Program-made: the position numbers and the translations under genes
Shown here: one piece after another, positions 15,353 to 55,853 of the stretch
Numbering within the stretch: the first letter of the stretch is position 1
How the letters are laid out: each line of letters opens with the position of its first letter
Notes under the pieces: model-generated
Databases searched by the model: none
What the model saw: the letters and a program-made list of their open reading frames with translations, nothing else
What the model was told of the DNA's origin: nothing
Assembly: GCF_030408755.1 (NCBI RefSeq)
Contig: NZ_CP047209.1
Coordinates: 372,001-436,000 of the forward strand
From: Corynebacterium felinum
GTDB lineage: Bacteria; Actinomycetota; Actinomycetes; Mycobacteriales; Mycobacteriaceae
DNA length: 64,000 nucleotides
Direction: 5' to 3'

Positions 15353-15424
15353 GATTCGACTTTCAGCGAACAGGTGAAAAATTGACCTGCGGTTTTACGG
15401 GTAGCACTTGCTCTATGTCGAATT
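15353..15424 (-). repeat. 72-bp dispersed element, copy 3 (diverged ends)
   Basis: Read on the minus strand, this 72-bp stretch shares the core ATAGAGCAAGTGCTACC, TAAAACCGCAGGTCA and CTGAAA with two other copies of the same length (47562-47633 and 55312-55383). Its ends are AATTCGAC and GTCGAATC, complementary to each other over 7 of 8 bases, while the other copies have AGTTAGAG and CTCTAACT. Pairing is kept although the sequence changed. Confidence 0.8.
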
Positions 15425-16344
15425 AATACTTCTCTTATCTACTGCAAAGTCCCCATGCTTTTAGCGAGAATAGTGCTGCCGATGCGGAAACGATCACAGA
15501 GTGGATGCGGTGAATGTTGCGCGATTGATTGACTTCCGTGCCCTGGTGCTTTCGTGGGTGGATCGTGGTCGAAACGTAAAGGGGTCACCCAATGTGGCAG
15601 AACATACAAGCACGAGGGGGTTTAAGATCGGTGCGATAATCATGATCCTAACCACTCTGAATACACTCCCTCCCGCGTGCGTGGCCTAGACGTTCCATCC
15701 ACCACACTCTCATAACCACAGGTTGGGGCAGCAGGGGGGTATGTGGGTTGTGTTTGTGATCGGCCGAGTGGATCGAGATCCACTAGTGTCTTGACATTCA
15801 ATGATGGCGTGAGGGCTATTGGGTCCTGGTTACTGGCTACTTGCCTAATGATGGGTGTTGAGAATGCTGTGGATACAAATGCTTATTGCAAGGGGGGTGG
15901 CCGGACAAGAATAGATTCTGCGCATTTCTGTGGGGCACGCTTTGAATTTCGTCAGACTAGCTGGTGGTGTGCTTTGGGTGTGATGGCCGTAGTAGGCCGG
16001 TTGTTTTGGCGGTGAAGTTTTTTGGTTGTGGCGCTGTCCTTCCTGTGGGTGAAATGGTGTTGCTTAAAGTTGAGTGTGGGGAGTGTCGGTTGCGGGGGTA
16101 GATGTTGTGTTAGGGGGTGTTGGCAAAAGGCAGGGGGTAATTTCTTTACGTTTTCATCAGTGTGGGATAAGTGGTTCTTAGGGGTTATTGAGGCATATTT
16201 TTCGAGCATGTAGCGTATTTTCTTCCCCGCTGCCTGGGGTGGTGTTTGCGCAGGGGAGGGGGTATTTTTTGGTTGGGTGATTGGTGTTGGTCGGGGGTGA
16301 TTTTCACTGGGGAGTGCGGGTATTTTTCGCAATCCCTTGAAAAA

Positions 16345-16358
16345 TGTTAGCGCTATCA
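16345..16358. promoter_or_regulatory. LacI-family operator upstream of the fucose operon
   Basis: TGTTAGCGCTATCA is a near-palindrome centred on a CG step. It matches the LacI/CcpA-type consensus TGWAANCGNTNWCA at all but one position. It lies about 170 bases before the first gene of the operon, which itself encodes a LacI-type regulator, so that protein is the natural ligand. Binding is inferred. Confidence 0.65.
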
Positions 16359-16524
16359 TGCATTCTGTTCACAGGATAGAACGTGAGCTAACCCATAAAA
16401 ATTCCCCAGTGTGTTCAAAGTCGCATTACTGAATGTGGGTGCTCACGGGATTGTCAGGAATCACAGCCGCAAGCCTGCTTGGGCTTTGACTGCGCTTCCG
16501 ACCGATCAAGAAAGGACGCTCACC

Positions 16525-18096
16525 ATGACGCAGCCGGTACCCACACGCCCCGAATTGTTGCGCTTGGAGAATATTTCAAAAACCTTCCCCGGGGTGAAGG
16601 CGCTCGACGAAGTTCACCTCGACCTTCGTCATAACGAAGTGCTCGGGTTGTGCGGCGAAAACGGCGCAGGCAAATCCACGCTCATGAAGATTCTCACGGG
16701 CGTGTACACCGCTGATCCTGGCGGCGAGATCTTCATCAACGGTGCGCGAGCCACTGTCACCGGCCCCCGTAACGCCCAAGAGCAGGGAATTTCCATCATT
16801 CACCAGGAGCTCAACCTTGTTCCTGATATGACGGTTGCGCAAAATATTTACATGGGGCGTGAACCCAAGAAAGGCTTTGTGCTTAACGACTCCGCCATGG
16901 TGCGTCAAGCAACCGAACTGCTGAACCGGCTTGCCATCGATGTGAACCCTAAAGCGTATATCCGCGACCTGACCGTTGCGCGTCAGCAAATGGTCGAGAT
17001 CGCTAAGGCGCTGTCCTTCGACTGCAAGATCTTGGTCATGGACGAGCCCACCGCGGCACTGACCGACAGTGAAATCGAAACGCTGATGGGGCTGATCAGA
17101 AACTTCGTCTCCCCCGAAACCGGCATGGTGTACATCTCCCACCGCATGGATGAAATTTCCGAAATCACCGACCGGATCACAGTGCTGCGCGACGGTAAAT
17201 ACGTTGACACCGTGGTCACAAACGACACCCCGATCCGCGATGTCATCGCCTTGATGGTGGGGCGTGAAATCGTCACCGACATCCGCCCCGAACCCAAGAA
17301 CTTCGATGACGCCGAAGTAGTGCTGCGCGTCGACAAGCTCTCCACTCGCGACCTGGTCAAGGATGTCACCTTCGACCTGCGCCGCGGCGAAATCCTCGGT
17401 GTAGCCGGGCTGATGGGCGCGGGACGTACCGAACTCGCCCGCGCTATCGTTGGCGCCGACCCGAAAACCGCAGGTCAGATCTGGGTGCACGGCGCCCAGG
17501 CGAACCTGAAATCGCCTGCCGACGCCGTCAACCGCGGCATCGGATACTTAAGCGAAGACCGCAAACAATTCGGACTGTTGCTCGACATGGATGTGAAAGC
17601 AAATACCGCACTCGCCTCCCTGAGCAACAAATACTCCCAAGCCGGATTCATCAAAGAATCCGCCATCGCCGACGACGCCAAGGCGCAAGTCAAACGCCTG
17701 AATGTGAAAACCCCAAGCATCAACCAGATCATCCGCAACCTCTCCGGCGGAAACCAGCAAAAAGTGATCATCGGCAAATGGTTGGTGCGCGACTGCGACA
17801 TCCTCATCGTGGACGAACCCACCCGCGGCATCGACATCGGCGCCAAAGACGAAATCTATGCCCTGCTCGATGAACTCTGCGCCCTCGGAAAATCACTGAT
17901 CGTGATCTCCTCCGAACTGCCCGAAGTGCTGCGCATCTGCGACCGCATCGCCGTGATGTGCAACGGGCGCATGACCGGAATCCTCGACAACGCCGACGCC
18001 AGCCAAGAATCCATCATGGAACTGGCCACCAAATTCCGCGACAACTCACAACCGAACACAAACCCCACGAACGACGATCACCAGGAGGTGGCCTAA
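16525..18096 (+). CDS. Sugar ABC importer ATPase, double domain (RbsA/XylG type)
   Basis: 523 residues with two ABC domains in one chain, as in CUT2-family monosaccharide importers. The first domain has Walker A GENGAGKST at about residue 45 and Walker B ILVMDEPTAAL. The second has the degenerate Walker A GLMGAGRTE of this family and signature LSGGNQQKV with ILIVDEPTRGID. The ATG at 16525 follows AAGAAAGGA and gives the normal N-terminus; a longer frame upstream is not supported. It begins the fucose operon, with the permease starting directly after the stop. L-fucose as substrate is inferred from the neighbours. Confidence 0.93.
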   Translation: MTQPVPTRPELLRLENISKTFPGVKALDEVHLDLRHNEVLGLCGENGAGKSTLMKILTGVYTADPGGEIFINGARATVTGPRNAQEQGISIIHQELNLVPDMTVAQNIYMGREPKKGFVLNDSAMVRQATELLNRLAIDVNPKAYIRDLTVARQQMVEIAKALSFDCKILVMDEPTAALTDSEIETLMGLIRNFVSPETGMVYISHRMDEISEITDRITVLRDGKYVDTVVTNDTPIRDVIALMVGREIVTDIRPEPKNFDDAEVVLRVDKLSTRDLVKDVTFDLRRGEILGVAGLMGAGRTELARAIVGADPKTAGQIWVHGAQANLKSPADAVNRGIGYLSEDRKQFGLLLDMDVKANTALASLSNKYSQAGFIKESAIADDAKAQVKRLNVKTPSINQIIRNLSGGNQQKVIIGKWLVRDCDILIVDEPTRGIDIGAKDEIYALLDELCALGKSLIVISSELPEVLRICDRIAVMCNGRMTGILDNADASQESIMELATKFRDNSQPNTNPTNDDHQEVA

Positions 18097-19080
18097 ATGT
18101 CAAAGACCGGCACACAGCTGGCAACCCGCATGGGAGCACAACTACAACAGCTCCTCGCGCTCGCCGCGCTGGCTGCGATCTTCCTCTTCTTCTCCTTCTC
18201 CACCGACAACTTCTTCCAATGGAACAACATCACCAACATCTTGCTGTCGTCGGCAGTGATCGGAACCATGGCATTAGGTGCCACCTTCGTGATCGCCACC
18301 GCCGGCATCGACCTGTCTGTCGGCACCGGCATGACCCTCTGCGCAGTGATGACAGGCGTATTCCTCAGTGGTGACTGGCTCGGACTCCCACTGCCCGTCG
18401 GCATCCTGCTCTCCATTGCCTTCGGCGCATTCATGGGCTTTATCAACGGCATTAACGTGGCCATTTTCAAAATCCCGCCCTTCATTGCCACCCTCGCCAT
18501 GATGATGGTCGCCCAAGGCCTAGCGCTGATCATCACCAAGTCCACCCCGATCTACCTCAACGGCGTGAACGGCTTCTCTGGCATCTCCCAAGGCCAACTC
18601 ATCTCCGATTTCCCCAACGCCGCACTGGTATTCATCATCTGCGCTCTCTTCGCCGCAGTCGTCATGTCCAAAACCCTCCTCGGCCGCTACGCCCTGTCCA
18701 TCGGCTCCAATGAAGAAGCCACCCGCATCTCCGGCGTGAACACCCGCCGCTGGCTGGTCGCCATCTACACCTTCGCCGGCATCTTCACCGCCCTTGCAGC
18801 CATCCTGCTCTCCGCGCGTTTGAACTCGGCACAGCCAGCAACCGGCATGGGCTACGAGCTCGAAGCCATCGCCGCCGTGGTCATCGGTGGAACCTCCCTC
18901 TCCGGTGGACGCGCCACCATCTTCGGCACCTTCATCGGTGCACTGCTCATGGCAGTACTAGCCAACGGATTGCAGATCATGTCCATCCCCCAGGAATGGC
19001 AGAAAGTTTCCATCGGCATCGTCATCCTGATCGCTGTGTTCGCCGATAACCTGCGCCGCAGCCGGGAAAAGAAAGTTTAA
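18097..19080 (+). CDS. Sugar ABC importer permease (RbsC type)
   Basis: A 327-residue membrane protein with about eight to ten hydrophobic helices. It has the CUT2 permease motif GIDLSVGTGM, the later ARLNSAQPATGMGYELEAIAAVVIGGTSLSGG-type region and a basic C-terminal end (DNLRRSREKKV). It starts right after the ATPase stop (TAAATG). Together with the ATPase and the lipoprotein at 19343 it forms a complete monosaccharide importer; this operon has no FucP-type symporter, so it is the likely route for L-fucose. Confidence 0.93.
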   Translation: MSKTGTQLATRMGAQLQQLLALAALAAIFLFFSFSTDNFFQWNNITNILLSSAVIGTMALGATFVIATAGIDLSVGTGMTLCAVMTGVFLSGDWLGLPLPVGILLSIAFGAFMGFINGINVAIFKIPPFIATLAMMMVAQGLALIITKSTPIYLNGVNGFSGISQGQLISDFPNAALVFIICALFAAVVMSKTLLGRYALSIGSNEEATRISGVNTRRWLVAIYTFAGIFTALAAILLSARLNSAQPATGMGYELEAIAAVVIGGTSLSGGRATIFGTFIGALLMAVLANGLQIMSIPQEWQKVSIGIVILIAVFADNLRRSREKKV

Positions 19081-19139
19081 AACCATGCACCATAACCAAA
19101 AAATCAAAGATTTTCATCGCCACCGTGATAGACCTAGCC

Positions 19140-19184
19140 GCTAAAAAACCCACAGCAACGACACGGCTTTTAGCACGCGGTAGA
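19140..19184 (+). other. Hairpin between importer permease and binding protein
   Basis: GCTAAAA and TTTTAGC flank a 31-base loop in the 262-base gap between the permease and the binding-protein gene. Such intra-operon hairpins often protect or attenuate transcripts so that the binding protein is made in excess. Role here is inference. Confidence 0.35.
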
Positions 19185-19342
19185 CAATCACAGAAGATAA
19201 AACCGCGCGGGCAAAAGCCACGCTGCACGGTGGGTACGGACGATGATCGACGGCGTCGAAAAGCTCGACACGACAATCCACGATACGTGGACACTCACAC
19301 AACCCCTTTGTGCTTTTCCGCACAGAACGACAAGGAAAACCC

Positions 19343-20332
19343 ATGAACAAGAAGCTCATCTTCACCGCACTGCTGTCAAGCACCGCACTTTTGGCCGCCT
19401 GCTCCGGTGGCGACAAAGCCGCAGAGTCCACCAGCGCAGCAGACGCAGGCGCATCCTCCGACAAGCCCTACATCGCAGTAGTCTCCAAGGGCTACCAGCA
19501 CCAGTTCTGGCAGGCAGTCAAGCAGGGCGCAGAAAAGGCCGCTGACGAGCTCGGCGTCACCATCACCTACGACGGCCCAGACAACGAAACCCAGGTAGAC
19601 AAGCAAATCCAGCAGCTGCAGACCGCACTGTCGAAGAAGCCAGTCGCCGTCGTCTTCGCCGCACTCGACTCCCAAGCAGCCGTACCACTTTTGGAATCCG
19701 CAGAAAAAGACAACATCCCAGTCGTCGCCTTCGACTCCGGTGTTGACTCCGACATCCCAGTAGCCACCGCCGCAACCGACAACAAGGCCGCTGCAGGCGA
19801 GGCCGCAAAGAACGTAGTCGAGCTCGTCGGCGACAGCGGCGAAGTCGGCATCATCTGCCAAGACCAGACCTCCACCACCGCCAAGGACCGCCGCGACGGC
19901 TTCAAGGAATACCTGGAGAAGAACGCACCAAACCTCAAGGTCGTTGACATCCAGTACGGTGGCGGCGACCACCAGAAGTCCGCCGACCTGACCAAGACCA
20001 TGCTTCAGGCGCACTCCGGCATCAAGGCCATGTACGGCTGCAACGAAGGCTCCGCAGTGGGCATCGGCCTGGGCGTAACCGAGGCCGGCAAGAAGGGCTC
20101 CGTGACTGTGGTTGGCTTCGACTCCGGTGAAGCACAGATGAACTTCATCAAGGACGGCACCATCGCAGGCGCAGTCACCCAGGACCCCGTCGACATCGGC
20201 TACCAGGCAGTCAAGGCAGCCTACGCTGCAAGCAAGGGCGAGAAAGTAGAGAAGAACATCGCTACCAACTACGCCTGGTACGACAAGAAGAACATTGACG
20301 ACGCCGACATCCAGACCATGCTCTACAAGTAA
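19343..20332 (+). CDS. Sugar-binding lipoprotein of the importer (periplasmic binding protein family)
   Basis: 329 residues. A lipoprotein signal (MNKKLIFTALL, LLAAC) places the lipidated Cys at residue 20. The mature part has the type I sugar-binding fold: YIAVVSKGYQHQFWQAVKQGA, VVFAALDSQAAVPLL, AMYGCNEGSAVGIGLG and GTIAGAVTQDP correspond to ligand-facing loops of the RbsB family. The start at 19343 is supported by AAGGAAAA. It is the external receptor of the importer and lies directly upstream of fucI. Confidence 0.93.
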   Translation: MNKKLIFTALLSSTALLAACSGGDKAAESTSAADAGASSDKPYIAVVSKGYQHQFWQAVKQGAEKAADELGVTITYDGPDNETQVDKQIQQLQTALSKKPVAVVFAALDSQAAVPLLESAEKDNIPVVAFDSGVDSDIPVATAATDNKAAAGEAAKNVVELVGDSGEVGIICQDQTSTTAKDRRDGFKEYLEKNAPNLKVVDIQYGGGDHQKSADLTKTMLQAHSGIKAMYGCNEGSAVGIGLGVTEAGKKGSVTVVGFDSGEAQMNFIKDGTIAGAVTQDPVDIGYQAVKAAYAASKGEKVEKNIATNYAWYDKKNIDDADIQTMLYK

Positions 20333-20345
20333 GGACTGACACATC

Positions 20346-22115
20346 ATGGCACAACATCCAGTGATCGGCATTCGCCCCATCATCGATGGGCGCCGCCAAG
20401 GCGTACGCGAATCCCTGGAAGAAAAAACCATGTCCATGGCGCACGCCGCCAAAAAACTCATCGAATCCACCCTCACCCACACAGACGGCACCCCCGTTGA
20501 GTGCGTGATCGCAGATAGCACCATCGGACGCGCCGGGGAAGCAGCAGCCTGCGCCGAAAAATTCGCCGCACTGCCCATCGCCGGTGAACTCACCGTCACC
20601 CCCTCCTGGTGCTACGTCACCGAGGTCATGGACTTAAACCCCAACTACCCACACGCAATCTGGGGCTTCAACGGCACCGAGCGCCCTGGCGCAGTGACCC
20701 TCGCTGCCAACCTGGCCGCATACGCGCAGTTCGGTGTTCCCGCCTTCGGCATCTACGGCGAGCATGTCCAAGATGCCTCTGATGAGGACATCCCAGCTGA
20801 GGTAGCAGAGCGCATCTTGCTGTTCGCCCGCTGCGCTATCGCTGTAGGCACCATGCGCGGTCGCAATTACCTGCAAATCGGTTCTGCGTGCATGGGTATT
20901 GCAGGTTCCGTCATCGATCGCCATATGCTGCAGGATTACCTAGGCATGGGCACCGAGAGCGTGGACATGACCGAGGTTGCCCGTCGCGTGGACCGCAACG
21001 TGTTCGCCCCTCAGGAGTACGAGGTTGCGCGACAGTGGGTGCGCGAGCGCATCACCGAGGGTGAGGATAAGAACCCTGAGCATAATCGCTTAAGCGATGA
21101 GCAGCGTGAGCTGCAGTGGGATTATGTGACCAAGATGGTGCTCATTGGCCGGGATCTCATGGAAGGCAACCCACGCCTGACCGAGTTCGGTTTCGAGGAA
21201 GAAGCCGCAGGCCACAACGCTATTTGTGCTGGTTTCCAGGGGCAGCGTCAGTGGACAGATCACCTGCCTAATGGCGATTTTATGGAGACAATCCTCAATA
21301 CCAGCTTCGACTGGACAGGTAAGCGTCGCCCTTATGTGATGGCTACCGAAAACGATGTGCTCAACGGCATCAGCATGCTGTTTAACTTCCTTCTGACCAA
21401 CCGCGCACAGCTGTTCTCGGACGTGCGCACATACTGGTCACCTGAAGCGATCGAGCGCGTCACCGGCGTAAAACCAGAAGGTGCAGCCGCACACGGCTTC
21501 CTTGACCTGCGCAATTCCGGCCCTACCACTTTGGACGCCACCTGCGCTGCGAAGGATGAGAACGGTAACCCCACCATTAAGCCGTGGTGGGAGATGACCG
21601 ATGCGGATATCGATGCCTGCCTTGAGGCCACCACGTTCCACGCGGCAACGCACGAATATTTCCGCGGCGGCGGGTTCTCCACCCACTTCACCACCCCAGG
21701 GGGCGTGCCTGTGACCATGGCGCGCATCAACCTGGTCAAGGGTGTGGGTCCTGTGCTGCAGATCGCCGAAGGTGAGACGGTGTTGCTTGACGACGCCGCC
21801 ACCGCCGCCATCGTCGATCGCACCGACCCCACGTGGCCAACCACCTTCTTCGCCCCACGTCTGACCGGCGAAGGCGCGTTTGAAAGCGTGTACAAGGTGA
21901 TGGATAACTGGGGTGCAAACCACGGTGCTATCGGCTACGGCCACTTCGGCCATGAGCTGATCACCTTGGCTGCGATGCTGCGTATCCCTGTGAATATGCA
22001 CAATGTGGAATCTGAGCGAATCTTCAGGCCTCGCGCCTGGGGTCTGCACGGAACCCAGAATGCTGAGAGCGCAGACTTTAGGGCCTGCGCAAACTACGGA
22101 CCCCTCTACGGCTGA
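20346..22115 (+). CDS. fucI: L-fucose isomerase
   Basis: 589 residues, the usual length of FucI (EC 5.3.1.25), which converts L-fucose to L-fuculose. VIGIRPIIDGRRQGVRESLE at the N-terminus, ATENDVLNGISMLFNFLL (with the catalytic Glu) and the C-terminal HNVESERIFRPRAWGLHG are characteristic; a Mn2+ site of Glu, Asp and His is known in the family. D-arabinose is also accepted by E. coli FucI. The gene starts 13 bases after the binding-protein stop, and its own stop shares a base with the kinase start. Confidence 0.95.
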   Translation: MAQHPVIGIRPIIDGRRQGVRESLEEKTMSMAHAAKKLIESTLTHTDGTPVECVIADSTIGRAGEAAACAEKFAALPIAGELTVTPSWCYVTEVMDLNPNYPHAIWGFNGTERPGAVTLAANLAAYAQFGVPAFGIYGEHVQDASDEDIPAEVAERILLFARCAIAVGTMRGRNYLQIGSACMGIAGSVIDRHMLQDYLGMGTESVDMTEVARRVDRNVFAPQEYEVARQWVRERITEGEDKNPEHNRLSDEQRELQWDYVTKMVLIGRDLMEGNPRLTEFGFEEEAAGHNAICAGFQGQRQWTDHLPNGDFMETILNTSFDWTGKRRPYVMATENDVLNGISMLFNFLLTNRAQLFSDVRTYWSPEAIERVTGVKPEGAAAHGFLDLRNSGPTTLDATCAAKDENGNPTIKPWWEMTDADIDACLEATTFHAATHEYFRGGGFSTHFTTPGGVPVTMARINLVKGVGPVLQIAEGETVLLDDAATAAIVDRTDPTWPTTFFAPRLTGEGAFESVYKVMDNWGANHGAIGYGHFGHELITLAAMLRIPVNMHNVESERIFRPRAWGLHGTQNAESADFRACANYGPLYG

Positions 22116-23497: not shown

Positions 23498-23514
23498 ATC
23501 TGAAGGGAATCATC

Positions 23515-27261: not shown

Positions 27262-27449
27262 TCGATATGTCTCTAAGGCCCGCGTGTATTGCTATGACGT
27301 TGTAGTCATCATTCCTTGATAGCCATAGGTTGGAATTCCACACGCATTTTTCCGGTGAGTAGTCCTCACCATTTTCGAGTAGTCAGGCAGCTCTGTTATT
27401 ACAAAACCACTGACACTACAACAATTTTCCTTGTCATCTTAGTTCCTAG

Positions 27450-29316
27450 CCCGGATTTTTCATGGGTGTGGGGTGAAAAGGTGAGCAAAAAGTAAAGAAA
27501 GTGCTTCTTGACCTGCTAGAATAGAGATGTTTTGAAGTCAATAATCTAGGCAGAAAGAAACACTTTCAAGGTGAAGACTACCACATACATTCCACGGGTT
27601 GCTAGCTGTTCTCATCTTGTATCCGGTGCGGGGGTGTTACCGTTTGCTCACGTAGCCGAATTGGTGGGAATAAGTGACTGCCTTGATTCCGCTTTGCCGC
27701 GTTCTGGGCTCACGCACACGTTAGGGGATGTGTGGGTGAATCTGGCTTTATCGTTGATTGCTGGTGGGGATGATGTCCACGACATCACCTTGCTTTCTTC
27801 TGTTTCAACCGCGTTAGCATCAAAATCGTTACCGTCAGTGACAACCGCATGGCGGCGGATCACAGAATATGCAGATACCAGCGAGCATGTGCGAGAAGGG
27901 TTTATCCACGCAGCGAAACAAGCTCGCACTAGGGTGTGGGATTTGTTAGGTGATCACGCTCCGCATCGGGTGGCAACAGTTGAACAACCACTGGTTATCG
28001 ATATTGATGCCACGTTGATTACCGCACATTCCGATAAGGAAAACGCGACGCCTACCTATAAGAAAGGCTTTGGTTTCCACCCGTTATGTGCCTTTATTGA
28101 TTACACCAGCATCGGTCTGCCTGGTGGGGAGTTTCTTAACTGCCTGCTTCGACCAGGAAATGCCGGGGCAAACACAATTCGTGATCACTGCCAGCTTGTT
28201 GACGAGATTCTTGCCACCCTGCCTGATCACAGTGATGGTCAACCCTGGGGCAAACGATTAGTCATCCGTGCTGACAGTGCTGGTGGGACAAAGAAATTCA
28301 TCAGTTTCCTCAACGATCACAACCTTGGGTATGTTCTGGGTTATTCCGCCCCGCCGACAGCGCGCATCACCCTTGACCATCACCTTCAATCCCAACAAAC
28401 AACCAACGCTGATACACAACACTTGGGAACCAGTGCTCACACAGGCAAAGACTGTGATCGGTGGGATACTCGGGTGCCGATTGTGCGTGCTTCAGGGGAT
28501 CTGGTTTGTGATGAGAACCATTTCCTTGAAGACATCACCGGACTACTGCGCACCGCAAATATAGATGAGCACCAACCTTTGGTGAATCTTCTAGCTGACT
28601 ACCCCGAGGATATGCGTGTTATCGCACGAATCGAACCACCCCACCCAGGGTGCCAACACAGTCTTTTCAACCAACATGGTGTTCGCGCCCAACTGTGCGT
28701 AACGAACCTTATTGGGAATATTCAACACATTGACTACTGCTACCGTAATCGGTCTTTATGTGAACAACACATCAAAGACACCAAAGACCAAGGCCTTAGT
28801 AAACTGCCGTTTAAACAATTCGGGGCGAACCAAATCTGGTGTTTGATCGTTGCACTATCCCACCAACTTCTTACCTGGACGAAACTCATCGACGCCTGCC
28901 ACCACAAGGATCATTCACACCAAGAAACAAGCAAGCCTTGGTGGACATGGGTGCCGAAGACTATCCGTGTAAGGTTTGTTGCGGTTGCATCAAAAATCAC
29001 CACAAGCAGCAGACGCATCATCCTCCAGCTTGACCAGCACAACCCCCACACCCACACACTGGTCACGCTTATTGGCTACACCCAGAGCCTTCTACAGCCA
29101 CGCTGGAAGAAACGAAAACCCTAACACCCCTAGGCCCACACACGCGATCTGGCAGCCACACTGCAGGCACACCCCAACCCCCAAACCCCACACAACTTTA
29201 TGGACGCACACCTTGCCCTAAAAACCACGAATCAAAGGGCGAAGGTGAACCAACCAACCCCACAAACACACCACCCCAACCCACCACCACCAAACCCACC
29301 CCATGAAAAATCTGGG
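27450..29316 (+). mobile_element. IS1380-family insertion sequence, complete copy
   Basis: A 1867-bp element with imperfect terminal inverted repeats (CCCGGATTTTTCATGGG at the left; CCCATGAAAAATCTGGG at the right, one mismatch). It is flanked by the 4-bp direct repeat CTAG at 27446-27449 and 29317-29320, the target duplication expected for this family. It contains one transposase gene. The second copy at 62776 matches it over the visible part. It separates the fucose operon from the accessory island. Confidence 0.92.
27571..29124 (+). CDS. IS1380-family DDE transposase
   Basis: 517 residues, GTG start. The DDE residues are visible in LVIDIDATLITAHSDKE (first Asp), VIRADSAGGTKKF (second Asp) and RSLCEQHIKDTKDQGLSKLP (Glu), the typical IS1380 context. 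A basic C-terminus follows. It looks intact and is probably active given the clean ends and target duplication. Confidence 0.95.
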   Translation: MKTTTYIPRVASCSHLVSGAGVLPFAHVAELVGISDCLDSALPRSGLTHTLGDVWVNLALSLIAGGDDVHDITLLSSVSTALASKSLPSVTTAWRRITEYADTSEHVREGFIHAAKQARTRVWDLLGDHAPHRVATVEQPLVIDIDATLITAHSDKENATPTYKKGFGFHPLCAFIDYTSIGLPGGEFLNCLLRPGNAGANTIRDHCQLVDEILATLPDHSDGQPWGKRLVIRADSAGGTKKFISFLNDHNLGYVLGYSAPPTARITLDHHLQSQQTTNADTQHLGTSAHTGKDCDRWDTRVPIVRASGDLVCDENHFLEDITGLLRTANIDEHQPLVNLLADYPEDMRVIARIEPPHPGCQHSLFNQHGVRAQLCVTNLIGNIQHIDYCYRNRSLCEQHIKDTKDQGLSKLPFKQFGANQIWCLIVALSHQLLTWTKLIDACHHKDHSHQETSKPWWTWVPKTIRVRFVAVASKITTSSRRIILQLDQHNPHTHTLVTLIGYTQSLLQPRWKKRKP

Positions 29317-37973: not shown

Positions 37974-38352
37974 GTTCGCCCGACATGGGCATGTTCTTAA
38001 GGGTGTGAGTCCCTGATAGTGAAGGTGGTTTAACTATGTAGCTGATGGCAACTGCAGCATCGTGAGGTGTTGTGGGGAGGAAGCTTCAAGCGAAATCCTG
38101 CACCGAGGTATACGAATCACATATAAGGCGCGCTGATCTGGGTAAGGCTGCCGAAGAAGTCGAAGCCTGTTCCATCGAAGTGGTTAGTGTGTAGATGTGG
38201 CGGTTGTAGGAGGAAAGAGCATGTTCTTAATCGGGGAGGCCTGTCACAGACTGTGCCAAGTAGGTGTGGTAAGCCCTGTTGTGGGTTGGTGTGGTAGGAG
38301 TCAGCCGAGGTCATAGTACTCGTGGGAGACACCGCGGTCCGCGGTAGCCCTT

Positions 38353-46971: not shown

Positions 46972-47974
46972 GGGGGTGTCCTTACATTGTGTCAGTTTTT
47001 CCGTATCCTTTGTGCGAATGTTATGCGGGTTAGAGTGCGTGAGTTTTTCACGTTTTATCCGGTTTTCTTTTTCCGGGTTTTTCGTGAACCTCTGCTTAGG
47101 TGGGCAGTAGGGGTGTGGTGAATCTACTGGTCTAGGCGGGGGTATGTGCGCTTTAAGGCCTATAGTAGCAGTTCTGTGTTGGGTGCGGGGGTAGCTGTCG
47201 CTTTTTAAATACCCCCGCTTATAATGTTGCTGGTGTGGTTTTTGTGACTTAGCTGTGTGCAATTAAATTTTTGCGTGTGTTTCCTTTAAGCGCACTGGGT
47301 ACTGGAATAAATGAAGCGTGTATTTTTTAAGGCTTAATGATTGAGCACACAATTAAGATGATAACTACCTTTTGTTAACAGCTATGGTGTACTTATCCTC
47401 CTTCATGTGCCCATGCCTGCTGGATTTTGCTGGAGTTCATGTGTGTTTGATGGGTCGTGTGATTGCGCTGCGTGGGCGGAGGGTCGGGGGCCCTTCTGTG
47501 CTTGGCTTAGTCCGCCCACTTGTTGCTGTGTTTTGGCTTAGTGCACATGTTGGAAATTATCAGTTAGAGATAGAGCAAGTGCTACCAATAAAACCGCAGG
47601 TCAATTTTTGGCTTCGATTCTGAAACTCTAACTCTTAGGCGTGCATCCCTACACAGAGAGCAAAAGCGCACAATTTTTGTGCGGACTAGCCTAGCCACAC
47701 ATGCAGAGATCCGGTTACAGCTTATTCGCACTGGCTTCTTTCCCTGGGAGAAAGCAGGGGATGAGGCGGGCATGTGTGCGTGCCAGCGGTGCTTTAACGC
47801 ACGTGAATGCGGCGGGTAAATCAGCACAATTTCAGCAGCGTGTGTGCAGTTTTTGTGGTGTTGGGAATATTTTTTCCAACCCACTGGTTGCTTATGGGGA
47901 CAGTGTATCTGTTGTGCTTTTTCAACTACCTGTTTGCATTGGCTACAGGAGGCAGTAGTAAAGGAGATGTCGCC
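46972..47974. other. Intergenic region with a 72-bp dispersed element
   Basis: About 1 kb between divergent genes without a supported gene. It holds the 72-bp element at 47562-47633. Open frames starting near 47807 that run into the AhpD-like gene have no RBS at their start and are not used. Confidence 0.5.
47562..47633 (+). repeat. 72-bp dispersed element, copy 1
   Basis: Begins AGTTAGAGATAGAGCAAG and ends CTGAAACTCTAACT; the 8-base ends AGTTAGAG and CTCTAACT are perfect inverted repeats. The copy at 55312-55383 has the same length, ends and core, and the copy at 15353-15424 keeps the core. It lies in a gene-free region and is not within an IS. Confidence 0.85.
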
Positions 47975-48451
47975 ATGAGCACGAACTACCCACAGCAGCT
48001 GGAGCATGGCCCCTATTTGGATAAGAGTTTCCCAGAAGTGTACAAAGCTTTGGCGCTCACCTATTCCACATTGGGTCAAGAATTGGAGAAGGTTGGTTTG
48101 CCTCAGGATCTGGTAGAACTCGTGCTTGTGCGTGCCAGCCAGATTAATGGTTGTGCAACCTGCCTGTCCATTCATGCCCCACAGGCACGCAAGGCTGGTG
48201 TGAGCGAGGTGAAGCTGGATGTGCTAAATGCCTGGCGTGAGACTGATATTTTCAGTGTTCAGGAACGTGCAGCTTTGGATCTGACCGAGGCTTTGACCAT
48301 TTTGCCCACCGGGGCACGGGCTGCTGATGCGCCGCTGAAAGCGTTGGAAGTTTTTAGCCCTGAGCAGGTTGCTGCGTTGGGGTGGGCGATTGCTTTGATT
48401 AATGCTTTCAACCGGGTGTCTTTGGCTTCAGGGCACCCGGTGAAGGGCTAG
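47975..48451 (+). CDS. AhpD-like carboxymuconolactone decarboxylase family protein
   Basis: 158 residues, ATG 47975 behind AAGGAGATG. LVELVLVRASQINGCATCLSIHAPQAR carries the CxxC..H centre of AhpD-type proteins, which act as peroxidase partners or thiol enzymes. The rest is an all-helical bundle (ALALTYSTLGQELEKVGLPQ, ALGWAIALINAFNRVSL). No ahpC is adjacent, so the redox partner is unknown. Confidence 0.9.
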   Translation: MSTNYPQQLEHGPYLDKSFPEVYKALALTYSTLGQELEKVGLPQDLVELVLVRASQINGCATCLSIHAPQARKAGVSEVKLDVLNAWRETDIFSVQERAALDLTEALTILPTGARAADAPLKALEVFSPEQVAALGWAIALINAFNRVSLASGHPVKG

Positions 48452-48477
48452 TTTTTGTTCTGCGTGATCGCACTGGA

Positions 48478-48513
48478 ACAAGGGGTAGGAGGTTATTGAC
48501 TCCTGCCCCTTGT
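48478..48513 (+). terminator. Terminator after the AhpD-like gene
   Basis: ACAAGGGGTAGGAG pairs with CTCCTGCCCCTTGT (14 bp with one G-T pair) around an 8-base loop. GGTATTTC follows, so the T run is weak. Confidence 0.65.
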
Positions 48514-48674
48514 GGTATTTCGCTAGTGTTTGTTTTTCCCACGTCGTGGTTGTGCTCACGGTAGGATCGTGGCAACTGTGAATTTTTTTAGTTGCGCTTA
48601 GAGAGTGCGGGCGGCTGCTTCGTGTGGGGGAGTGCTCACATATAAAGAAGCTGTGGAGAAAGGCTGGTGTGGAC

Positions 48675-50114
48675 ATGGGTGATGATCACTTTGTGCAAGG
48701 TGAAGGTTCGACGGATGCGGCTGGGTTCAATGCCCAGTCGGCGGTGGATGCGCTGATTGCGCATTATGAGAAGTCTTGTGCCTTGGCGCACCGTGTGATC
48801 GCTCGTGGGGAGTATGAACAGTATGCGGCGGTGACTTATCCGAAACTTACGGTGACGGTGCATAGTTGGCATCCGATTGATCGCACGGCCCCGTTTGGCT
48901 ATGTGAACGAGGCGGGTACTTATTCGGCGGTGATTTCTAAGCCACGGTTGATGCGTAGTTATCTGGAAAATCAGTTGAAGCAGTTGTGTGCGCATTATCC
49001 GTGCACGATTACTGTGGGGGATTCTGGCCAGGCGATTCCGCCGGAATATATTGATCAGCTTGATAGCAGTGTGTTGGGTTCGCACCGGCACCCCGCGATT
49101 CCGCGGGCAACGCTCGATGATGTTCATGATGCGATTGTGGATGGTGATTGGGAGGCTTTTCATGGTGAGGAGAAGCCACTGGCGCATTTCACGGCGCACC
49201 GTTTCGATATTGCCTGTGCTCGTATTGAGCACTACACGGGGATGAGTGTTGATACTGTTCAGCGCTATATTTTGTTTACTAATTATGGGATGCATACGCG
49301 CGAGTTTTTGCGCTATGGATTGGCTGAGTTGCAGCGCGCGGGTAGTCGCTATACGAGTCTTGTGGTTGCGGGGATGACTATTACTCGTGCTGAGGCTACC
49401 GCGCTGGATGTGCATGAATTTACAAGCCATGATCGGTTCCAGATGCCGCGTTTTGATCTCGTTGCTGAGGATAATACGGGGATTACGATGGTCAATATTG
49501 GTGTGGGTCCGTCGAATGCGAAGACTATTACTGATTGTTTGGCTGTTCTCCGCCCAGAGGTGTGGGTGATGATTGGGCATTGTGCGGGGCTTGATGGGCG
49601 CATGCGGATGGGGGATTTGATTTTGGGCAATGCGTATCAGCGTTCCGATAATTTGTTGGATAGTCATATCCCGGTGAGCTTGCCTATCCCGGCGGTCCCG
49701 GAGGTGCAGCGTGCGCTTGAGGCGAGTGTGAAGGAGATTTATGGTGACGATCTTGATTTGATGCGCACGGGTACGGTGATTTCTACTGATGATCGGAATT
49801 GGGAGTGGCATACGCCGAAGGCACTGTGGGAGTGGTTGCGGGGATCGACTGCAGCCGCCTGTGACATGGAGTCGGCAACGCTTGCGGCGAATGGGTATCG
49901 TTATCGGATTCCGTATGGCACGTTGTTGAGTGTGTCGGATTTGCCTTTGCATGCGGTACCGAAGCTGCCGGCTGCGGCGCAGGCGTTTTATTCGAATTCT
50001 AAGCAGGCGCATGTGATGTGTGCGGTGCGTGCGGTGGAGTATTTGGCGCAGCGGCCCGAGCGTTTGCGTACCCGCAAGTTGCGTCGTACGGTTGCTGAGG
50101 TGCCGTTTCGCTAG
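48675..50114 (+). CDS. amn: AMP nucleosidase
   Basis: 479 residues. The N-terminal domain (YPKLTVTVHSWHPIDRTAPFGYV) and the C-terminal nucleoside phosphorylase-like domain (GAGLDGRMRMGDLILGNAYQR-type region, CDMESATLAANGYRYRIPYGTLLSVSD) are those of Amn (EC 3.2.2.4), which splits AMP into adenine and ribose-5-phosphate. The catalytic Asp/Glu lies in the MESATLAANG region. The ATG at 48675 is preceded by AGAAAGG; a GTG two codons upstream is possible. Confidence 0.93.
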   Translation: MGDDHFVQGEGSTDAAGFNAQSAVDALIAHYEKSCALAHRVIARGEYEQYAAVTYPKLTVTVHSWHPIDRTAPFGYVNEAGTYSAVISKPRLMRSYLENQLKQLCAHYPCTITVGDSGQAIPPEYIDQLDSSVLGSHRHPAIPRATLDDVHDAIVDGDWEAFHGEEKPLAHFTAHRFDIACARIEHYTGMSVDTVQRYILFTNYGMHTREFLRYGLAELQRAGSRYTSLVVAGMTITRAEATALDVHEFTSHDRFQMPRFDLVAEDNTGITMVNIGVGPSNAKTITDCLAVLRPEVWVMIGHCAGLDGRMRMGDLILGNAYQRSDNLLDSHIPVSLPIPAVPEVQRALEASVKEIYGDDLDLMRTGTVISTDDRNWEWHTPKALWEWLRGSTAAACDMESATLAANGYRYRIPYGTLLSVSDLPLHAVPKLPAAAQAFYSNSKQAHVMCAVRAVEYLAQRPERLRTRKLRRTVAEVPFR

Positions 50115-50655
50115 TGCGCTGCGTGTCGACGTCGGGGGTGAGGCGGCGTCGATACGCATAGTCAGGGTGCGCTGCGGGGGTAGTTGAAGAAAATCCGACC
50201 TAGGTATGATGGTGGTTTGTATCGCCGACGCTGCAGCTGCTGTGTGCTGACGAATTTTCGTATTTTTATTCAGCGTTGAGTGTAGGTGAATGACTGTGAT
50301 TTTCGCGTCCATTTAAACTGTGCTGCGGCTACAGTGTGGGATTGTTATTTTTCACAACCATGGTGCTGCACTTGCAGGTCACGAAGAAAATTCAGCATTC
50401 GGCAAACCCTGCACATAGATACAGTAAGCAGTGGATATACAGTACTCTTATGTGACTGTGCGCGGTGTGGGCTTAGGGGATCTGCGGCGAGGTGACCGTT
50501 GATCCGCTCAGGGGTTGATTTCGGGGTTTTCATCAGGGTTTCCCCCCACCCCAGAAGAGGAGGACACATAGCATTGGTGGCGGGGTGCGTGATACTTTTG
50601 CAGCTAAGACTTCAAGGAAAGTGCAAATATTGTGAAAAGGAAGGCCTAACGGATC
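50115..50655. other. Intergenic region between amn and the export system
   Basis: About 540 bases without a supported gene. The promoter of the export operon should lie here. A long antisense frame over amn extends into this region but is a shadow of amn. Confidence 0.5.
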
Positions 50656-52518
50656 GTGGCTGAGGATCAAGCAACTGGGACTGCCCCGAAATCATCGAAG
50701 AAGACGGCGCTGATCGGTGTAGCATTACTGGCGCTGCTCGCGGCCGCAGGTGGTGGTGTTTATGTGATGACATCGAATAATAAGGAACTCATCACTTCCG
50801 CTGACTATCGTGTTCTTGATACCCGCGATAATGCTCAGCGCGTCTCCGTTAGCGGCCAGGTTGAAGCGTTTAAAACGGTGGCGTTAACCACCCGTTTGCC
50901 AGGCCCGGTACAAACTATTGATGTGCGTGTGGGTGACCGTGTTCAACCTGAGCAAGTGGTGGCAAATATTGATGTTTCTGCCCTTGAGCGGGAGCTGGCG
51001 AATAAGCGGGCGCAGCAAACCGCAAATGATGCTACTGCCTTGAGTCAGATTGAAAACGCTGAGCGTGCGTATAACCAGAACAAGGCCATGGTTGATGAAG
51101 GGTTGAACCCAGAAATCAATGGTGCGGTCGCGGCTTTGCGCCAGGCTGAAGCTAATTACGAGAAGCTTAACGCGGAGTTCGAGTTTGCGCGCACTCAGCA
51201 TGCGCGTGGGAATGATCCGACGATTATTGCGCAGCACGCGGCGGTGCAAGCTGCCCGCGAACAGATGTTGTTGGCGGCGGTTGAGGCAGCCCGCACGGGT
51301 GCTAATGCTGCCTTTACGTCCCAGCAGCAGCAGCGTGATGTGCAAGCGCTTAACGACGCCAACGCGGCCTTAAGTGCGCTGGAACAACAGCGTGCCGCAG
51401 CGAGTGATGAAGAGGAGATTCGTCGCCTTGATTCCGAGATTGCTGCGATGAAGGCACAAGTGTCCCAATTGGAAACAGTGGTGGCGAAATACCCCCAGGC
51501 TTATACTGAGGCTGGTTTAGGGGCGGTGGGTAATGCCGCAGGTTTAAGCGCAGCGCAACGCACCTTGCAGGATTCGCAGCGCACCTTGGATCACACCTTA
51601 GGGGCGACGGATCAAAAACTAGCGGCTACCCAAAAAGATGTGGCTTTAGCTTTTGAAGCGAAAAAAGATGCGGCCACGAGCCTGGAAACGGCACGCCGAA
51701 GTGTGGATAATCAGCTGAAGAATCAGCAAGCCGCTGTCGATGATGCTGTGCGTTCGGCGCGTGCCGCGCGAGTTGCTGCGGGGGCAGGGGATTCCCAACT
51801 GCAGGTCGATATCGCTTCCTCCCAAGTACGCACCCCGACCGAAGGTGTAGTCACGCGCGTGGATGCAAAGGAAGGCGCACCAGCAGCAGGGGCGTTATTA
51901 ACCGTTGCTGATGATCGTCGCCTGATCGTGCGCTCCACTGTCAAAGAGTTGGATGTTTCCAAAGTGGAGGTGGGCCAAAAAGTTGAGTTCACTACTGCCG
52001 GAACTGGGGATAAGAAATTCACCGGCAAGGTTTCTTTCGTATCCCCTGCAGCTGCTCCACCTGAGTTGTTAAACCCAGCACTGGCAGCCGGTGCGAACCA
52101 ATCCTCCTCTACTACTCCGAAGGCAACCTTCCCTATCGAAATTGAGGTCGAAGGCGACCGCGAAGGTCTACGCCTTGGTGCTACCGCGAAGGCCCGGATT
52201 ATTACCAAGCCTGCAAGTACCAACATGCTTGTTGCCAAAGATGCTGTTTTCGAAGGCAAGAATAAGAACGAAAAGTTCGTGCTTGTGGTAGCAGAGCATG
52301 AGGGCAAGACGAAGATTGTCAAGCGTAAGATCACCGTGGGACACGAGTCGGAATTTGATTTTGAGGTCACCGGCGGTGACGCGAAGAAGGGCGATAAAGT
52401 TCTCACCGACTACAAGCGCTTCTTGGGCAAAATCGATGAGGAAGTAGAAGTCGAATCCACCCCAGCTACACCGGGGGAGAAGTCCGATGCCCCTGAGTCG
52501 AAGGAAGCTACGAAATAA
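50656..52518 (+). CDS. Membrane-fusion adaptor protein (MacA/HlyD-like)
   Basis: 620 residues, GTG start behind AAGGAAGG. One N-terminal helix (TALIGVALLALLAAAGGGVYV), then half of a lipoyl-like domain (PGPVQTIDVRVGDRVQPEQVVANID). A long helical coiled coil of about 270 residues follows (repeats of Ala/Glu/Gln, about 110-380), then the second lipoyl half (VRTPTEGVVTRVDAKEGAPAAG) and a barrel domain. The coiled coil is longer than in E. coli MacA. With the two genes downstream it forms an export system; the substrate is unknown. Confidence 0.85.
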   Translation: MAEDQATGTAPKSSKKTALIGVALLALLAAAGGGVYVMTSNNKELITSADYRVLDTRDNAQRVSVSGQVEAFKTVALTTRLPGPVQTIDVRVGDRVQPEQVVANIDVSALERELANKRAQQTANDATALSQIENAERAYNQNKAMVDEGLNPEINGAVAALRQAEANYEKLNAEFEFARTQHARGNDPTIIAQHAAVQAAREQMLLAAVEAARTGANAAFTSQQQQRDVQALNDANAALSALEQQRAAASDEEEIRRLDSEIAAMKAQVSQLETVVAKYPQAYTEAGLGAVGNAAGLSAAQRTLQDSQRTLDHTLGATDQKLAATQKDVALAFEAKKDAATSLETARRSVDNQLKNQQAAVDDAVRSARAARVAAGAGDSQLQVDIASSQVRTPTEGVVTRVDAKEGAPAAGALLTVADDRRLIVRSTVKELDVSKVEVGQKVEFTTAGTGDKKFTGKVSFVSPAAAPPELLNPALAAGANQSSSTTPKATFPIEIEVEGDREGLRLGATAKARIITKPASTNMLVAKDAVFEGKNKNEKFVLVVAEHEGKTKIVKRKITVGHESEFDFEVTGGDAKKGDKVLTDYKRFLGKIDEEVEVESTPATPGEKSDAPESKEATK

Positions 52519-52523
52519 CAGCA

Positions 52524-53351
52524 ATGGCTACTCATGAAACACCCTCCGGCCTGCTCATTGAGATGCACAACATTGTGAAAAAGTTCAACATCGGAACCGA
52601 AAATGAACTCACAGTGTTGCGCAACTGCGAATTCGATGTTGCCCCCGGCGAATTTGTCTCGGTTGTGGGATCGTCCGGTTGTGGTAAATCCACGCTGATG
52701 AACATCATTGGCATGCTTGACCGCCCCACCACGGGTAGTTATCGCCTCAGCGGGGTCGATGTGCTTGCCCTGCGCGATGATGAAGCTGCCCGCTACCGGA
52801 GTTTGCACATTGGCTTCGTTTTCCAAAACTTCAACCTCATCGGGCGTATCAGTGCGCGCAAAAACGTGGAAATGTCCATGATGTATGCCGGGGTAGGGCG
52901 CAAAGAACGCGAAGCCCGCGCTGATGAGCTGCTGGCAATGGTGGGCATGTCTGATCGTGCCGGGCATTCGCCAGCGGAACTGTCTGGTGGTCAAAAGCAG
53001 CGTGTGGCTATTGCCCGCGCCCTCGCCAATAACCCGGACCTGATCCTCGCAGACGAACCCACTGGTGCCCTCGACTCCAAAACAGGACGCATGGTGATGG
53101 ATTTGTTCCATACCCTGAACCAAGAACACGGGGCCACCATTGTGTTTATTACCCACAACCCCGAACTGGCTGCGGAAACCACCCGCATCGTGACTATGCA
53201 TGACGGTGTGATTTCTGGGCCGCGCGCACCCCGAGTACCGCAGCAAGCGCTGCGATTGGGTGTCGATGCTGCCCCTACCGAAGTGATTGCGCGCGCAGAT
53301 ACTGCAAGCAGTAGGGGCGTCGATAAGCATGAAAGGGGCGATCAAGCATGA
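52524..53351 (+). CDS. ABC exporter ATPase (MacB/LolD type)
   Basis: 275 residues. Walker A GSSGCGKST at about residue 52, signature LSGGQKQRVAIARAL, Walker B LILADEPTGALD and the His switch FITHNPELA are all intact. The family powers FtsX-like permeases in lipoprotein, peptide or macrolide export. It starts five bases after the adaptor stop and overlaps the permease start by four bases. Confidence 0.93.
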   Translation: MATHETPSGLLIEMHNIVKKFNIGTENELTVLRNCEFDVAPGEFVSVVGSSGCGKSTLMNIIGMLDRPTTGSYRLSGVDVLALRDDEAARYRSLHIGFVFQNFNLIGRISARKNVEMSMMYAGVGRKEREARADELLAMVGMSDRAGHSPAELSGGQKQRVAIARALANNPDLILADEPTGALDSKTGRMVMDLFHTLNQEHGATIVFITHNPELAAETTRIVTMHDGVISGPRAPRVPQQALRLGVDAAPTEVIARADTASSRGVDKHERGDQA

Positions 53352-54631
53352 GTATCGTCGAATCTTTGCGCCTTGCGCTGAGCAATGTTGCTGGTAACAA
53401 GATGCGCTCGCTGCTTACCCTTTTAGGTGTGGTCATCGGTATCGCCTCGGTAATTGCCATCCTCACTTTGGGTCAGGCGTTGCGTTCGTCGACAACATCG
53501 AGCTTGTCTGATTTTGGCGCGTCCGATTTTTCGATCATTATTCAGCCGATTCCGACGAAGGAAATGCTGGACGAAGTTGGCGGCGAGCAGTTCTATTATT
53601 ATTTCGGCGACCTCGAAGATCCCGATATGGAAATTTCGGAAGACATGGTTGAGGAGCTGCGCAGCTATCTCGGCACCGACCTGCAAGGTATCGCAATCGG
53701 CGATACCGGCTCGGTCAGCGGTGGCTACACCATTGGGGACGAGGAAGTGTCGGGCAACCTAAACTTTATCAATACCGATTTCCAGGACATGCGCGGCATT
53801 AAAATCGAGCATGGTCGAGCACTCAATGAAGACGATATTTTCGGCAACCGACCAGTTGCGGTTGTGTCGAAGCCGCTCGCTGAGAAGCTTTACGACGGCC
53901 AAGCAGCGCGCGCTGTCGGCCAAGAAGTAACCTTCGATACAGGTGAAGCGGAATTGAGAGTCACGATTGTGGGCGTGCAAAAGGAATCACAAGGCGGCCT
54001 CTTAGGAAGCTTCGGACCCCCACCCGCGAACGCCTATGTTCCTTATGGCAACCAAGCGCATTTCAAGGATGAGGTCGGGCACTGGCAAACCATCGCGGTG
54101 CGCAAAACCCCTGAGGCCGACGGCGCGGAATTTCAAAAGAAACTGGAGGAATATTTCGCACCCTACTACCAAGACTCCACCGAATACCGGGTGAAGATCC
54201 GCGATAACAGCACAGACTTGGACACCTTTAACAAGGTGCTCGGCACCATCAGTTCCGTGATCGCCGCCATTGGTGGAATTTCCCTGCTCGTGGGCGGTAT
54301 TGGCGTGATGAACATTATGCTCATCACCGTGACCGAACGCACCCGTGAAATCGGTATCCGCAAAGCACTAGGCGCAACCCGCCGCGATATCCGACGCCAG
54401 TTCGTGATCGAAGCAATGGTAGTGTGCATGATCGGCGGCATTATCGGCATGATCTTAGGCAGCGTGGTCGGTATGGTGGGTGCAACCTTCATGGGGGGAG
54501 TAGTACTCCCACCATTATGGGGTGTACTTGTTTCCTTGCTGTTCTGTTTGGCCATCGGCCTGTTCTTTGGATGGTACCCCGCCAACCGCGCGGCCAAACT
54601 CGACCCCATCGAAGCACTACGCCACGAGTAG
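53348..54631 (+). CDS. ABC exporter permease (MacB/FtsX family)
   Basis: 427 residues. N-terminal helix (KMRSLLTLLGVVIGIASVIAIL), a large external domain of about 230 residues, then three C-terminal helices (GGISLLVGGIGVMNIMLITVTERTREIGIRKALGA is the FtsX hallmark). It overlaps the ATPase gene (ATGA) and is closed by a terminator, so adaptor, ATPase and permease form one tripartite-like system in a Gram-positive organism. Confidence 0.93.
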   Translation: MSIVESLRLALSNVAGNKMRSLLTLLGVVIGIASVIAILTLGQALRSSTTSSLSDFGASDFSIIIQPIPTKEMLDEVGGEQFYYYFGDLEDPDMEISEDMVEELRSYLGTDLQGIAIGDTGSVSGGYTIGDEEVSGNLNFINTDFQDMRGIKIEHGRALNEDDIFGNRPVAVVSKPLAEKLYDGQAARAVGQEVTFDTGEAELRVTIVGVQKESQGGLLGSFGPPPANAYVPYGNQAHFKDEVGHWQTIAVRKTPEADGAEFQKKLEEYFAPYYQDSTEYRVKIRDNSTDLDTFNKVLGTISSVIAAIGGISLLVGGIGVMNIMLITVTERTREIGIRKALGATRRDIRRQFVIEAMVVCMIGGIIGMILGSVVGMVGATFMGGVVLPPLWGVLVSLLFCLAIGLFFGWYPANRAAKLDPIEALRHE

Positions 54632-54644
54632 TACTTGTTCTAAA

Positions 54645-54684
54645 AAACCACCTTCGTGTGCATGCTCACCAACGAAGGTGGTTT
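54645..54684 (+). terminator. Terminator after the export operon
   Basis: AAACCACCTTCGT pairs perfectly with ACGAAGGTGGTTT, 13 bp, around a 14-base loop, just after the permease stop. T run is short on this strand. Confidence 0.8.
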
Positions 54685-54781
54685 GAGCAATTCTAAGCCC
54701 CCATTACTTTTGCTACCGGTAATGATTAGGATGGTACTTAAAAGCCCATTGCTGTGACATGTACTTTGAGGAGGTTGAAAA

Positions 54782-55150
54782 ATGTTCGGCTATATCAATC
54801 TTGTTGTTGGCTTAGTACTCTTTGCTGGTCTGGGTGCTTTTATGGCTACAGCTATTCGCAATAACACGCTCGTGCGCAATGAAGCTCTCGGCATTCGCAC
54901 GAAAGCCACATTGGCATCCGATGCCGCGTGGCGCGCCGGCCATGAGGCTGCCCGCCCCTATTTGCACGGCGTTGTCGTAGTCGGGCTTGTGGGCGCGGGG
55001 GTATCACTTGCAGCTCTTCCTTTTGCGCTGAGCGACGGCGAGTTTGTCCAGTGGGGATTGTATGCTCTACCCGTCGTGTCTTTTGTGATACAGATTATGA
55101 TGTTTATCTGGTCTGCGCAGAAAGCAAATGCGGCAGCGAAAACTGTCTAG
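54782..55150 (+). CDS. SdpI-family membrane protein
   Basis: 122 residues behind GAGGAGG. Three helices; after the first come RNNTLVRNEALGIRTKATLASDAAWRAGHEAARP, the conserved N..GIRT..T..SD.AW segment of the SdpI/YhfL family, in which Bacillus SdpI gives immunity to a secreted toxin. No toxin gene is adjacent; in corynebacteria the role is unknown. Confidence 0.82.
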   Translation: MFGYINLVVGLVLFAGLGAFMATAIRNNTLVRNEALGIRTKATLASDAAWRAGHEAARPYLHGVVVVGLVGAGVSLAALPFALSDGEFVQWGLYALPVVSFVIQIMMFIWSAQKANAAAKTV

Positions 55151-55153
55151 CAC

Positions 55154-55201
55154 AAATCCTGCCCACTAGTCCCAGAAGGGAGCATAGGGGCAGGATTTTT
55201 T
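55154..55201 (+). terminator. Terminator after the SdpI-like gene
   Basis: AAATCCTGCCC pairs with GGGCAGGATTT around a 23-base loop and is followed by a T run, directly after the stop. Confidence 0.85.
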
Positions 55202-55853
55202 CGTGCGCTGTGCGCGGGAGTTAACCTAGCAATCCGCGCATGGAGTGTCCGGGGTAGTTTGGCTTCCAACCGGTTGCTGTGCGCAGGCTGTGGAAGGTGC
55301 TGGAAAATATCAGTTAGAGATAGAGCAAGCGCTACCTGTAAAACCGCAGGTCATTTTTCACCCCCTGCGCTGAAACTCTAACTATTAATTTTGAATCAAT
55401 CTTCACATATTAATAGGCCCCTTGCGGTCACTGGGTACCCGTACGCTTTGCGCATCCTCTTGGTTTTTCACCATCACCACCCGCCTTGTCAATGAATAGG
55501 ATGAGCGCAGCAGGTGGTGGGGATAGCAAGTCCAGGGGTGGGTGTGATGGCGAAGAGCTGCCCTTTTTCGCAGCGGAAAAACCTCCCCCAGGTGCACAGC
55601 GTGCCATCTTTGACCATCTGCTGCTATTGACACAGATTCCCCATGTGCGTACAAAGGAAAGAAACACACATTAGTTCTTTGTGGTTATTTTTTCAACGCC
55701 TTGAAAATAGTGCGTTCACTTCGAATAGATTCTACGAAGTAGTGCCGATAGTCGCAGGGAATTTTTTAAAACTGGGATGCGCGTCGGTGGGGTTACTACC
55801 CCAAGTTGATAGAAATTGTGTACACACTCAAGCTGGATGAAGGTGGCATTCTT
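55202..55853. other. Intergenic region with a 72-bp dispersed element
   Basis: About 650 bases with no supported gene. It carries the second copy of the 72-bp element at 55312-55383. The rest shows no gene or clear promoter. Confidence 0.5.
55312..55383 (+). repeat. 72-bp dispersed element, copy 2
   Basis: Same ends (AGTTAGAG/CTCTAACT) and length as the copy at 47562. The core ATAGAGCAAGCGCTACC, TAAAACCGCAGGTCA and CTGAAA is shared; the middle differs. In this copy an inner pair ACCTG/CAGGT can form. Confidence 0.85.

Follow-up and report, generated by a model that had tools for sequence, protein, structure and literature searches.

Bacterial repeats are usually recognized by their own sequence and by a transposase. 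ERIC, RUP and BOX elements are multi-copy, foldable and intergenic, with lengths of ~70-150 bp, and in these respects they resemble the 72-bp element described here. They are defined by similarity over the whole element, unlike the present family, in which one short core lies between exchangeable matched arms. No description of the 72-bp repeat was found in the literature searched, a search with most subscription papers outside its reach.

Copies in the window

The window is the whole stretch of DNA that was analysed, 64,000 nucleotides from the genome of Corynebacterium felinum. The original prediction placed three copies of the element in it, and both their positions and their exact length of 72 bp were verified. 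The features are as follows.

15353..15424, minus strand: 72-bp element (L005) with type A arms AATTCGAC/GTCGAATC
15383..15396, minus strand: core motif AAAACCGCAGGTCA of L005
about 15199..15743, minus strand: MITE-like DNA around the type A copy L005, borders approximate
47562..47633, plus strand: 72-bp element (L006) with type B arms AGTTAGAG/CTCTAACT, lacking the 3' tail that most copies have
47590..47603, plus strand: core motif AAAACCGCAGGTCA of L006
55312..55383, plus strand: 72-bp element (L007) with type B arms AGTTAGAG/CTCTAACT
55340..55353, plus strand: core motif AAAACCGCAGGTCA of L007
55384..55417, plus strand: conserved 3' tail of L007, ending GAATCAATC-N7-ATTNATAGG

The ends had been said to stay complementary despite base change, and they do, with the arms of L005 pairing at 7 of 8 positions. 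In element coordinates, the MITE-like DNA of L005 shows 5' arm homology to -327 and a 3' end at +217; no 5' terminal repeat was found in this stretch (15199..15743). Elsewhere in the window, Rfam RF02001, a group II intron domain, scores 115.5 bits at positions 38056-38225. Two directly repeated 300-bp stretches, 27447-27746 and 62773-63072, are exactly alike, and this repeat extends into a 517-aa ORF (27571-29124), the product of which we take to resemble an insertion-sequence transposase.

Rfam 15 gives no match at the element, either for the window at the gathering score or for 55250-55450 at E<=5, and ARAGORN calls no tRNA gene in the window. Peptide coding is unlikely, given that open frames vary at all codon positions, and a minus-strand promoter would be no more than a guess, as its candidate boxes are wrongly spaced.

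The family in the genome

A covariance model seeded with 58 aligned copies finds 70 copies in the 3.24-Mb genome, 69 at E<1e-7 and one weak (E=0.016). A 34-bp core pattern with up to 3 mismatches gives 56 matches, against none for the reversed control pattern. The 58 copies aligned first do so without gaps, each at exactly 72 bp (58/58), with a fixed interior of 56 bp between the arms; positions 39-48, next to the right arm, are largely free even though the length is constant in all 58. Most copies are extended by the 3' tail already noted for L007.

Several copies lie close together. Three type A copies stand in tandem at L088 (G000:C1:2633350-2633825) with a spacing of 196 bp, where the flanks of the unit are identical, yet the copies differ from each other by 2-4 bases within the 72 bp; the gene just upstream ends in GGTCGAATCAGTATCTAA, which is identical to the type A right arm and its flank. 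Two type B copies at L041 (G000:C1:2383504-2383783) are also spaced by 196 bp, with an intervening sequence that bears no relation to the one in L088. Type A and type B copies face each other within ~160-210 bp in three cases, all on G000:C1 (L020, 1288519-1288811; L032, 38779-39023; L089, 21239-21496). A truncated type A copy at L110 (G000:C1:173781) keeps the right part and tail, with the core replaced.

That the element is not a normal riboswitch, as originally argued, agrees with its unrelated neighbours, which also speak against a cis-regulator of one gene class: 112 genes were scanned and no Pfam family occurs in more than 4. No partner gene was recognized beside or between copies in this genome. 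A codon-scored gene caller places 0 of 70 copies inside genes, with 63% of the window covered, and a plain ORF listing shows an overlap with an ORF of at least 80 aa for 14 of 58 copies. Therefore, the figures on genomic context are rough.

Matched arms of two types

The arms fall into type A, TTCGAC/GTCGAA (36 copies), and type B, TTAGAG/CTCTAA (31 copies), with no hybrids among the 67 copies counted when the degenerate L093, L094 and L095 are left out. In these 67 copies the innermost five pairs are always intact, and the sixth is intact in 65. The types are fully separated at arm positions -7, -4, -1, 56, 59, 62 and 65, and the best type-separating interior position carries 0.33 of 1 bit. 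In the 58-copy alignment, which holds 56 distinct rows, 95.1% of cells pair across the arms, a value reached by 0 of 500 shuffles, and slid versions give 12-42%. Two further measures are weak: five pairs are changed on both sides (8/500 shuffles as high), and five further pair types occur (500/500 as high).

Compensatory change, which the original prediction read from three copies, holds in that the arms stay matched and in that such change recurs across the genus. Within this genome, however, it amounts to one concerted swap, plus a double change of L054's own at pair -5/60, from TA to GC. The swap may be a single old event; since each type possibly descends from one ancestor, few independent events are counted within the genome. 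Mismatches in type A arms include T-G at pair -10/65 (30/36) and A-C at pair -8/63 (12/36), and therefore favour neither strand.

The core as a shared word

The sequence AAAACCRCAGGTCA occurs 69 times in the genome, against 0 for its control. These divide into 52 G-form sites in 72-bp elements, 16 sites of a one-letter variant, the A-form, and one G-form site in a gene of the window. In this genome the A-form marks an IS5-family element that looks intact, at its transposase-proximal end. For 13 of the 16 sites an IS-type terminal repeat is no more than 40 bp away or the site is part of a MITE end, and the other three (153135, 155859 and 2741356) share 21 bases with the IS. The pattern GAAA-N5-ACCTGYGGTTNT, with at most one mismatch, gives 77 matches, and the 36 exact ones among them all have IS, MITE or element form. 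The G-form site at window 17464-17477, in an ABC-transporter ATPase gene, is the genome's only exact one outside elements and is probably there by chance.

The word also appears in other settings, which are leads and not tests. tRNA-Met genes precede it in L105 and L108, and in Minnie- and Shauna1-related mycobacteriophages it precedes gene 1 at ~57 bp from the end of the genome; gene 1 is annotated as a terminase small subunit in some records and as a minor tail protein in others. In the portions of the papers covered, it is contained in a Northern probe directed at the 3' portion of a prophage sRNA of M. tuberculosis (PMC3861185) and in a promoter fragment (PMC8117764), and a shorter form is contained in the phiJoe int-attP primer (PMC5311408).

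Viral contigs hold at least 120 stretches with the core 14-mer and no match to the longer core pattern. Among the matches listed (83 sites, 80 loci), arms of at least 8 bp flank 7/83 sites against 28/800 random ones. The sequence TGACCTGCGGTTTT is often found just upstream of a small transglycosylase-like gene (L138-L217, among the matches listed), and a PHROG transglycosylase family accounts for 22 of 45 chosen neighbours among the matches listed, these 45 being drawn from 166 listed, plus a few others.

The core in related species

The original prediction asked for further copies in related genomes, and for the 72-bp family itself this check failed. The pattern for the 72-bp family matched 0 of 200 congeners, and the covariance model gave two weak hits among 241, from a scan of 242 genomes in which the best 18 candidates per genome were scored; 60 relatives gave no match. 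For a 2.5-kb stretch of the window, the best match in a congener reaches 76% over 431 bp.

The core AAAACCGCAGGTCA, searched by sequence alone, is present in 11 congeners, and because the search required TT at positions 18-19, congener sites are under-counted. Nine of these congeners carry the G-form, mostly in single copy, and nine sites result when L137, which repeats L132, is left out. Perfect arms of at least 9 bp flank 7 of the 9 sites, compared with 2.4% of 5000 positions taken at random and 1.3% of 3857 in intergenic DNA, and their sequences differ from those of the C. felinum arms. The longest perfect arms at each locus are:

L127: 16 bp
L128: 12 bp
L129: 14 bp
L130: 10 and 7 bp
L131: 7 bp, longer if mismatches are allowed
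L132: 13 bp
L133: 11 bp
L134: 9 bp

Given that L128 resembles L134, and that L130 contributes two sites, about seven sites are independent. Arms of 12 and 16 bp at L124 and L125 stand outside the 7/9 count, as the model that detected these loci includes the arms. In L127, L128, L132, L133 and L134 the left spacer equals the right one to within 1 nt, and in the C. felinum copies the difference is 2 nt; the spacers are not so balanced in L129, L130 and L131. Seven congener sites fold as single-stranded DNA, with z from -3.1 to -6.5. The A-form is carried by two congeners, one of which (G136) has 9 copies, with one of these (L135) at an IS5-type end; the site in the other (L136) is without arms.

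A proposed hairpin that presents the conserved core

The same core between different matched ends in related species, the strongest of the results, suggests that the element is likely a hairpin presenting the core. The reading we prefer, tentatively and at a little short of an even chance, is a selected inverted-repeat hairpin, judged from sequence comparison, in which the arms would need only to match each other and the core AAAACCGCAGGTCA would be recognized in trans. The element would act as a hairpin, of RNA or DNA, that presents the core to a putative factor. Pairing would be the job of the arms, and the reader of the core would be a protein or complex. In favour of this reading are the matched arms, the 56-bp interior of constant length, the slower change of the 72 bp relative to nearby MITE DNA, and the congener sites. 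The points that we count against it are that the arm swap in this genome may be one old event, that two of the pairing measures are weak, that arms hardly vary within a type, that gene conversion could explain the slower change, that the longer core pattern has 6 scattered genome-contig matches outside the genus, with arms of at least 9 bp at 0 of 6, and that such arms occur at 2/83 viral sites, among the matches listed, versus 4/800 random ones.

A broader proposal is possible but doubtful: AAAACCGCAGGTCA with matched arms may be a hairpin signal of the genus, read by a putative host factor, with a word common to an IS5-family transposon and to actinophages, and amplified to ~70 sites in one species. 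Such a signal would combine a fixed core with a free stem, and each species would have a stem of its own.

IS5-type MITEs and the selfish alternative

The original suggestion of a MITE was borne out in part. Homology to the 5' arm of an IS5-type MITE is found in 22 of 70 copies, all type A (weak or partial in L016, L020, L024 and L053), and homology to the 3' arm in 16 of 70; the other 48 copies have no MITE homology. The ends of the MITEs are similar to an IS5-family element of 949 bp that has 10 end-paired copies in the genome, and the product of this element is closest to the IS5-like ISRhosp9 (51%, from plasmid matches). Multiplication in this genome would have occurred partly within IS5-type MITEs, and the copies outside them would have multiplied as non-autonomous mobile DNA. 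A BLASTN search for distant relatives of one type B copy found none on plasmids or phages, and two congener hairpins gave none on plasmids.

Across 12 MITE copies, identity is 93.4% in the 72 bp and 87.6% in the tail, while the 3' MITE arm is 72.5% identical (11 copies) and the 5' arm, taken in two parts, 69.6% and 53.8%. In 14 copies each, 13 of them shared, identity is 73% in the IS-type 3' terminal repeat and 92% in the 72 bp; the figure for the 5' terminal repeat is unreliable, with several forced matches. The 72 bp therefore change more slowly than the surrounding MITE arms, and the element seems to be kept. Constraint on the element would be the simplest reading of this slower change, with selection as its putative cause, and gene conversion among copies could be an alternative source.

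An unlikely reading, although the strongest of the rivals, is a purely selfish micro-MITE, in which the arms would serve as short terminal inverted repeats, with the core as a transposase-binding site in subterminal position, and the copies would appear conserved since only competent ones multiplied. The homology of the 22 copies, the position of the A-form core at an IS5-type end and the presence of ~70 copies in one genome only would fit. It accounts poorly for the 48 copies without MITE arms, for IS-type terminal repeats that are more decayed than the 72 bp, and for congeners that are mostly single-copy with different arms; moreover, no clear target-site duplication was recognized in the flanks of MITE copies, judged by eye.

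RNA hairpin or double-stranded site

More doubtful than the micro-MITE is an RNA hairpin at transcript 3' ends, serving as a signal for termination, processing or stability with a conserved loop. Type B copies lie downstream of a co-oriented gene in 24 of 32 cases (p=0.007), and the gaps at 45 copies with both neighbours called include 15 convergent and 4 divergent ones, counts that come from rough gene calls. Type A, however, has no such preference, with 8/16 among MITE copies and 7/11 among others. Five copies folded as RNA give z of -5.4, -5.4, -2.2, +0.5 and -3.9 against shuffles, so three fold better at about -3.9 or lower, but L006 folds no better than its shuffles; the opposite strand of six copies gives +0.0 to -2.3. 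The tRNA-Met sites and, as far as that source was covered, the prophage sRNA probe would also suit this RNA reading. Covariation is confined to the outer stem: interior helices have 0 covarying pairs in the alignment from this genome, and the two short interior helices added by RNAalifold are both nearly constant. As the mismatches favour neither strand and Rfam is silent, a structured RNA in the narrow sense, one of the original candidates, is unsupported, although RNA may still play a part.

The element is improbable as a double-stranded DNA site that a chromosome-binding protein would read, with arms as fixed half-sites of two specificities and pairing irrelevant. In favour of this reading, the arms are almost invariant within each type, as is expected of a fixed protein site and not of free pairing, the interior length is constant despite nearly free positions near the right arm, and element orientation matches replication in 45/69 copies (p=0.015 if the terminus lies near 1.5-1.6 Mb, as assumed, and 0.05 if it lies at 1.4 Mb). 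Against it, congener arms differ in sequence yet match, which is unexpected of fixed half-sites, and loop length varies among congeners.

Comparison with known systems

REP/REPIN sequences, which work with a RAYT (TnpA-REP), are likewise short inverted repeats that lie between genes and reach tens of copies, but they consist of a 20-40-bp palindrome, whereas the element described here has 72 bp with a 56-bp interior. This system was rejected as a candidate, given that the genome has no RAYT gene (Y1_Tnp, PF01797), while 5 of 14 control genomes were positive. IS5-family MITEs are alike in the arm homology of 22 of 70 copies and in ends that resemble the 949-bp element. They differ in that 48 copies are without MITE arms, in that the IS-type ends are less well preserved than the 72 bp, and in that related species show the core between other arms. 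In short, a 14-bp core stays constant while the matched arms are replaced between species, and therefore the roles of pairing and of the core are directly testable. Through the shared word, one possible recognition factor is linked with a repeat of the chromosome, the end of an insertion sequence and the ends of phage genomes.
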